A stretch of DNA of 64,000 nucleotides from Desulfobulbus oligotrophicus. Lineage in GTDB: Bacteria > Desulfobacterota > Desulfobulbia > Desulfobulbales > Desulfobulbaceae. Numbering within the stretch: position 1 is the first letter of the stretch; each line of letters starts with the position of its first letter. Where the stretch lies: assembly GCF_016446285.1 (NCBI RefSeq), contig NZ_CP054140.1:2275501-2339500 (forward strand), read 5' to 3'. Shown here one piece after another: positions 7,908-11,593 of the stretch. The position numbers and the translations under genes were made by a program. A model generated the notes under the pieces. It made no database searches. It saw only the letters and a program-made list of their open reading frames with translations, and was not told the DNA's origin.

Positions 7908-9233
7908 TTATGGCCTGATTATTTCACAATCACATTCAGCATCTTTAATGTTGAGAAGGAGAAACTTGGCATCAAAACCGTTTTTTATCAGCTCTTCATA
8001 GGCCATGTCAGCCCTGGCACCGGTGGAGCAGTGAACATAAATCTTTTTATCTTTTGGCAGTTCATTGAGACGGTTGGGAATCTCATCCAAAGGAATATTG
8101 ATAGTATTTTTGAAAATACCTAATTCCGCCACCTCCTCTTTGGTGCGAGCATCCACAATGATGGCATTTTTGTCTTCACCTGAGGCTACCTTGCGGAAAT
8201 CCGCTACCGATACCTCTCCCTTACCTAATATTCGTACCCATTTGATTTCAGTGTTATAAATAGGGCCTTTTTCGGTTTTACCTTTGGCCTTTACCCAGCC
8301 TTCATACCCACCATCAACCAGGGAGACAAAGTTAAAGCCTTCTTCTCGAACATCGGCGAGTGCATCCATGATCACATCTTCATCGCCGTACAGGACAATG
8401 GGGGCATTGCGGGGAACATCATCGAGTTTGTCTTCCAGCATATGATAGGGAACACTGTAGGCACCCATGATTCGCCCGGCAATAGCGTTGGCAGTTGAAC
8501 GGGTGTCAATAAGAACAACGTTACCGTTTACAATAAAGTCTGTTGTTGAATAGGTGGGCAGGTTAGCCTTGGCCCACTCGGGTTCTCCGTCCAGATAAAC
8601 ACGAACATCATTGTATCCTAATTTTTTCGCCAGACCGGCGGAAGCGGTAGACATACCTCATGTGGGCCCTCCACAATAAAAAACAAGGGGTATGTCTCTG
8701 TTTTCAGGAAGAACACCAGCCTGTTTTTCTTCTAAAAGCGGAACAGGAATGGAGTGTGCTCCAGGTAAGTGGGACTGACCGTAGCGAGCAGTCGGGCGTG
8801 AATCAACGAGAAAGAGCGGACTTTGAGTGGTAATTAATTTTTCCAGTTCAGGTGTTTTGATCTCAGTCGTCCCGGCAGGGAGTTTGGCAAGTTTTAATTG
8901 GACGTCTGTAGCAAAGGCGTCATTGCCACGCATCTCATAAGCTATGCTCACAGCTTTACCCTTGGCTACCTGACTAAGACCGGTGGTGGTGGTGTCGAAC
9001 TTGACCATCATCACCTTGGCTTGCTCACCTTTGCCGATCGCAATGGAAATGCTCTGGGCTCGTTCTGAAAAACCAGTGACTTCACCTTCGTATATGAGGG
9101 GTTCTTGTTTTTGTACAGTCTCTGTTGCGGCTAGAGATTGTGTTTTCTCCACTGTTTTCGTTCCCGCACATCCACCGGCAAGCAAGGCCAGCATGAGGCA
9201 AACGGGAATCAGTCGTAACGGCTTCATTTTCAC
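7908..9233 (-). CDS. Triple-rhodanese lipoprotein, predicted selenoprotein (in-frame TGA)
   Basis: Two open frames (9233-8658 and 8654-7908) are in the same phase and are separated only by TGA at 8660-8658. Read through, they give a 441-residue protein with U192. GTG 9233 has AGGAGG 7 bases upstream. Residues 1-22 form a lipoprotein signal (LLAGGC, C22), so the location is periplasmic or membrane-anchored. After a beta-rich segment (about 45-115) come rhodanese 1 (about 125-215; VDSRPTARYGQSHLPGAHSIP, then C187-G-G-P-T-U192-G-M-S-T), a cysteine-less rhodanese 2 (about 230-315) and rhodanese 3 with active C402 (VHCSTGARA). It ends with a CxC. Rhodanese homology continues smoothly across the TGA, which argues against two genes. 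It likely handles sulfane sulfur or sulfur redox. A simple nonsense mutation is the alternative. Confidence 0.8.
8628..8657 (-). promoter_or_regulatory. Candidate bacterial SECIS element downstream of the TGA
   Basis: In the mRNA, 17 bases after the UGA, CGCC-GGUCU-GGCG (plus coordinates 8640-8628) forms a 4-bp GC stem with a 5-base GGUCU loop. The E. coli fdhF SECIS has the same GGUCU apical loop, three bases nearer to its UGA. SelB recognises such loops. Nearer the UGA, GGUA-UGUC-UACC can form another small stem. The function is inferred from this resemblance. Confidence 0.6.

Positions 9234-11593
<2,360 letters not shown>

Follow-up and report, generated by a model that had tools for sequence, protein, structure and literature searches.

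A selenocysteine-type reading frame and its protein

The window, meaning the whole 64,000-nucleotide stretch of Desulfobulbus oligotrophicus DNA that was analysed, contains on its minus strand a coding sequence that runs from a GTG at 9233 to a TAA at 7910–7908 (7908..9233). The strand was absent from the preliminary description of this locus, as was any SECIS hairpin. Homologues cover the full length of the coding sequence, and a Shine-Dalgarno-like AAGGAGG (9241..9247, minus strand) was read 7 nt upstream of the GTG. When TGA is taken as a stop, the region falls into two ORFs, 9233–8658 and 8654–7908. When TGA is read as selenocysteine (Sec, U), the product has 441 residues with a single in-frame TGA at codon 192 (8660–8658), which agrees with the earlier claim of two same-phase frames parted by one TGA. 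We regard the gene as real, and the sequence indicates that its product is most likely one exported sulfur-handling protein with a predicted active-site selenocysteine.

By reading of its N-terminus, the protein is an exported lipoprotein with a signal peptide and a lipobox-like L-A-G-G-C22 (C22 at 9168..9170), as had been proposed. C22 is Cys in 78 of the 104 homologous rows described below, that is, in 63 of 80 rows with Sec and 15 of 24 rows with Cys at codon 192, so the lipid anchor is common, not universal. The N-terminal part of the protein includes residues 43–115 (8889..9107), for which the structure model and structure comparison predict a small CusF-like beta barrel (Z of 11.6 to CusF structures over 70–75 residues).

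Pfam recognised three rhodanese stretches of PF00581 (129.4 bits; cut-off 22.2), and the triple-rhodanese architecture described before was recovered. Domain 1 (residues 129–222; 8568..8849), the best Pfam stretch and also found by a fold search with the domain model, carries the active-site loop C187-G-G-P-T-U192-G-M-S-T-A-S-A in the residue order given previously. C187 (8673..8675), the first residue of the loop and the expected sulfur acceptor, is Cys in 104/104 class rows, and in 123/123 rows when 19 phylum loci are added. Domain 2 (about residues 241–321; 8271..8513), located by Pfam and by PDB sequence matches over 241–321, has the loop Y-G-D-E-D without a cysteine. Domain 3 (about residues 338–426; 7956..8222; Pfam and PDB sequence matches) has the normal rhodanese cysteine noted earlier, C402 (8028..8030) in H-C402-S-T-G-A-R, which is Cys in 102/104 rows. 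The catalytic Cys at the loop start is present in domains 1 and 3 and absent in domain 2. The protein ends with two further cysteines, C434 and C436 (C-D-C; 7926..7934): C436 is Cys in 101/104 class rows and the C434 column in 53/104. These tail cysteines are absent from several phylum rows.

Codon 192 among homologues

Matches to the protein at E 1e-25 or better were found in 167/257 genomes of the class, and ordinary annotation would split or shorten the gene despite this presence. At the phylum level, matches at E 1e-20 or better were found in 42/395 genomes. A plasmid search returned 321 records, all with identity below 60% and one alone covering 80% of the query. For the codon comparison, 105 loci were assembled, comprising 30 from the 55 relatives, the locus L044, 14 class-search loci and 60 hand-picked from the class list. 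For the mapped rows, L040–L043 were removed as duplicates and L036 is without codon 192; the protein sequences of L044 and L053 are the same, and the genome G240 contributes two rows. In the resulting 104 mapped class-level loci, a set that leaves out some TGA-free class rows such as G197, G209, G247, G224, G078 and G075, codon 192 is TGA in 80, TGC or TGT in 24, and nothing else. The preliminary description had pointed to cysteine at this column and to homologues ending at the TGA as informative signs. The first is seen in the 24 Cys rows; the second is not seen at all, as the alignments run through codon 192 in 104/104 rows. The aligned part of 77/80 TGA loci is free of any other in-frame stop. 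One extra in-frame stop occurs in the TGA rows L081, L101 and L035 and in the Cys row L032.

The genomes that share only the phylum gave 32 listed matches, 23 with one TGA and 9 without TGA. In the best-scoring 19 of these 32 matches listed, codon 192 is TGA in 19/19 and the loop reads C-x4-U, continuing as C-x4-U-V-L-S. D. japonicus also has this TGA. Judging from these sequences, this predicted Sec protein is widespread across an entire group of sulfate reducers.

A pseudogene or a sequencing error would show up as a single in-frame stop within a gene that is normal in other respects, and this locus has just such a stop. This explanation is refuted by the recurrence of TGA at codon 192, in 80 class-level and 19 phylum loci. 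The publication on the Desulfobulbus oligotrophicus Prop6 genome gives 1,236-fold coverage and QV 93 (PMC7862947). With TGA present in many separate genomes and such coverage, the wrong base considered in the preliminary description is very unlikely, and the probability left to a pseudogene or an error is minimal.

The SECIS-like hairpin and the decoding machinery

A SECIS-like hairpin, CGCC-GGTCT-GGCG (8628..8640, minus strand), occupies nucleotides 18–30 after the TGA. Its stem has 4 bp and its 5-nt loop contains G; the hairpin begins 18 nt beyond the TGA, and the distance from the TGA to the loop is 21 nt. The bacterial SECIS model, as given in the relevant passage of a 2026 review, has a loop of 3–9 nt with G in its first two positions, a stem of 4–16 bp, a distance of 16–37 nt from the UGA and an MFE of at most −7.5 (PMC13188914). 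The hairpin fits this model as given there (stem 4, loop 5, 21 nt, G in the loop), and the UGA with 45 nt folds at −9.3 kcal/mol. The 49 nt after the TGA showed no extra stability against shuffled sequences (z of 0.18; 103/200 shuffles as stable); the hairpin is therefore short and its support is conservation. Rfam gave no SECIS match; its four weak matches were to unrelated families, all under the gathering score.

The conservation follows the TGA. The sequence GCCGGTC[TA]GGCG stands at fixed spacing in 78/80 Sec rows versus 0/24 Cys rows. The four inner pairs all form in 99/99 Sec rows (80 class and 19 phylum) versus 5/24 Cys rows, counts that come from mutually related rows and are not independent events. 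When the stem register was slid by 1–3 bases, four pairs formed in 0, 0, 0, 0, 0 and 1 Sec rows. In the 99 Sec rows, the pair 18–30 is C-G in 94, G-C in 4 and U-G in 1, and the pair 21–27 is C-G in 97 and A-U in 2; as read from the alignment, a few two-sided (compensatory) changes preserve the stem. Codon choice shows the same constraint: the top-codon shares at codons 199–202 of the Sec rows are 0.97–1.0, compared with an average of 0.523 for their 122 conserved columns, and those of the Cys rows are 0.39 at codon 199 and 0.57 at codon 202.

Two other sequence features were recorded. An inverted repeat, seen by eye in this genome, surrounds the TGA within about 8649–8693: one arm, AGACATACC, lies upstream, and the other, GGTATGTCT, immediately follows the TGA. 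A second genomic copy of the 13-nt hairpin core, at C1:698043, has no TGA at the same spacing and was read as chance.

In the genome, a single contig of 3,102,012 bases, all four genes named in the preliminary description, selA, selB, selC and selD, were found. selA scored 619 bits (cut-off 268), and selB scored 348 bits (cut-off 242) with its wing domain also matched. The tRNA-Sec gene selC scored 71.5 bits (cut-off 47) and was called by ARAGORN as tRNA-SeC with anticodon TCA. selD scored 361.5 bits (cut-off 125) and has its own in-frame TGA in the context A-A-G-U-A-A-K-L-G (L120, G000:C1:1078205-1079146). The tRNA-Sec model was also over its cut-off in 5/14 control genomes; its specificity is imperfect, so it is the combination of machinery genes that counts. 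Elsewhere in the genome, a formate-dehydrogenase-like gene (L126, G000:C1:2707158-2707937) has a TGA in R-V-U-H-G-P and lies under its family cut-off. The surroundings of the TGA codons in selD and in this gene are typical of Sec.

Among the 55 relatives, 26 genomes have a TGA-bearing match, which in G005 falls within an N-terminal piece instead of at codon 192. Counted by hand, all 26 match the SelB wing or tRNA-Sec. Three of them, G033, G043 and G052, gave neither a SelB wing match nor a selB over the cut-off, and tRNA-Sec was found in them; G038 gave no tRNA-Sec match. Several relatives (e.g., G001, G007, G009, G010, G014, G022 and G023) have two distinct tRNA-Sec genes over the cut-off, of which the second scores lower, at 50–66 bits.

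The TGA could also be a true stop between two separate proteins, with a restart at the ATG at 8654, two codons on. From 8654 the second ORF is open, and 80/80 class Sec rows, versus 8/24 Cys rows, carry an ATG at the second codon past the TGA. A second half without a signal peptide would stay in the cytoplasm while the first half is exported, and one rhodanese domain would be cut. The halves are joined by Cys in 24/104 homologues, and the hairpin is kept only alongside the TGA. The ATG two codons after the TGA is kept in 4/19 phylum rows, and 6/19 (L139, L141, L145, L149, L150 and L151) have no ATG or GTG among the two codons that follow it. Two separate proteins are rejected because of the Cys homologues, the TGA-linked hairpin and the phylum rows without a nearby start codon; we give this possibility very little weight.

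The TGA/Cys column, the hairpin and the machinery all support the selenocysteine that had been predicted, and U192 is almost certainly selenocysteine on this sequence evidence. UGA codon 192 would be decoded, with near certainty, by SelB and tRNA-Sec together with the hairpin 18–30 nt downstream.

Sec and Cys have replaced each other repeatedly in this family. A quick maximum-likelihood tree built from the 104 rows requires 14 changes of the Sec/Cys label, and well-supported branches force at least 11 of them. The Cys rows L089 (also L132) and L093 keep near-intact, decayed hairpins with GGCA instead of GGCG. In the tree, L089 and L093 fall among Sec rows, as though both had lost Sec recently. 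SelB and tRNA-Sec are still present in most Cys-bearing genomes of the genus, so the Cys members are not explained by a general loss of the machinery. Near relatives distinguished by nothing but Sec versus Cys at a single site provide a natural comparison for learning what selenium contributes to the chemistry of rhodaneses.

Predicted activity and comparison with known rhodanese selenoproteins

The full-length structure model was poor (pLDDT 61.7, pTM 0.34), and its low confidence is the reason that weight was given only to the domain-1 model (pLDDT 77.4, pTM 0.74). In domain 1, a strand at 183–186, a loop and a helix at 194–204 are predicted, which is the layout of a rhodanese active site. 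The model matches solved rhodaneses, the best being 6mxv_A (E 5.5e-7, TM 0.65). The active-site Cys of a rhodanese takes sulfane sulfur to form a persulfide. In the protein here, C187 would take sulfane sulfur from polysulfide, thiosulfate or persulfide, giving C187-S-SH. The selenol of U192, which stands sixth in the loop, would then attack this persulfide, so that sulfide is released and a C187-S-Se-U192 bond is left. A thiol partner would reduce this bond; that partner may be an external reductant or the two cysteines at the C-terminus. C402 of domain 3 may be a second sulfur carrier, and the overall role may be that of a periplasmic sulfane-sulfur reductase or transferase.

We infer this resolving-selenol mechanism from established rhodanese chemistry, and we place it somewhat short of an even chance. 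Speaking against it are the lack of a conserved neighbour gene, the tail cysteines absent in some phylum rows and the poor full-length model. No conserved operon partner was seen among 21 stretches around the gene, where other protein clusters occur in at most 8. The clusters that recur near the gene in these 21 stretches look like housekeeping genes of one neighbourhood. Taken as a whole, the statement of a 441-residue exported Sec lipoprotein, with the resolving-selenol mechanism as the leading guess, has a probability of about 0.75.

The protein may also be a selenoprotein whose U192 serves redox repair or selenium handling (reduction of peroxide, disulfide or selenite) and not sulfane-sulfur chemistry. 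C187-x4-U192 resembles a redox pair. Most selenoproteins of known function are oxidoreductases (PMC2398784), and in Geobacter the gene of the rhodanese-like ExtH belongs to a cluster linked with the reduction of selenite and tellurite (PMC5877670). Such a role fits less well with the rhodanese nucleophile position, C187, being Cys in every row and C402 in nearly all, and the 21 stretches show no conserved neighbour related to selenium or oxidative stress. We consider a redox or selenium-handling role less likely than not.

For sulfane-sulfur chemistry, a wider and rather doubtful proposal can be made. The protein might be a periplasmic selenoenzyme that occurs throughout the Desulfobacterota. 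A resolving selenol built into its rhodanese loop would have turned a transferase into a sulfane-sulfur (polysulfide or persulfide) reductase, which would feed or drain the pool of sulfur in the periplasm of sulfate reducers. Provided that the protein is made, many of these bacteria invest selenium in a protein that handles sulfur in the periplasm.

The preliminary description called a Sec-bearing periplasmic sulfurtransferase a notable addition to sulfur biology in this group. This wording is too strong, because the relevant passage of the 2026 review already lists rhodanese-like selenoproteins in five forms, with the motifs UxxS, UxxG, CxU, UxxG and UxxxxU (TsoB) (PMC13188914). Form 1 is entered there as WP_010941598.1, with PF00581 and the motif UxxS (PMC13188914, PMC9312934). 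Sec-containing rhodanese-related sulfurtransferases are listed from sea-water DNA in two earlier surveys (PMC1088965, PMC2398784), and a rhodanese-like Sec protein from a marine deltaproteobacterium in another (PMC8318568). As Sec rhodaneses are already catalogued, a Sec rhodanese as such is not new. No paper joining rhodanese, selenoprotein and Desulfobulb was found in the literature searched, which lacks most subscription papers, and unpublished status is not claimed.

No NCBIfam model reaches its cut-off for the protein or for its homologue L044. Ordinary periplasmic rhodaneses of the PspE type share with it the loop with a first Cys, seen as weak NCBIfam matches; unlike the protein here, they have one domain and no Sec. 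The multi-rhodanese ergothioneine synthase EanB also has several rhodanese domains in one chain and aligns over 119–430, at an rmsd of 18, so only single domains superpose. EanB is not known to contain Sec. The form 3 model, NF041203 rhodanese_LYCAU, likewise describes a rhodanese domain with Sec in some members; the protein scores 53.9 bits against its cut-off of 115, and the form 3 motif is CxU in contrast to C-x4-U here. TsoB (NF045694), a rhodanese/DsbD fusion-like selenoprotein with UxxxxU, has two chalcogen residues five apart, like C187-x4-U192. Domain 1 alone matches the TsoB model, at 48.7 bits against a cut-off of 805. The first residue of the pair here is Cys, and no DsbD part was seen in the protein.

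The form 1 protein WP_010941598.1 is presumably from Geobacter sulfurreducens. Its likeness to the protein here consists of a rhodanese domain, one Sec and UxxS, as judged from its catalogue entry. We think it fairly probable that the two belong to the same catalogued family, "Rhodanese-like domain-containing protein form 1", in which case the family's reach would be the only new point. U192-G-M-S fits UxxS, and so does C-x4-U-V-L-S of the phylum rows; the motif compared is short and was compared by itself, as the review passage gives no architecture. On its sequence, the protein appears to be another case of the already known rhodanese selenoproteins, with a motif that fits form 1.
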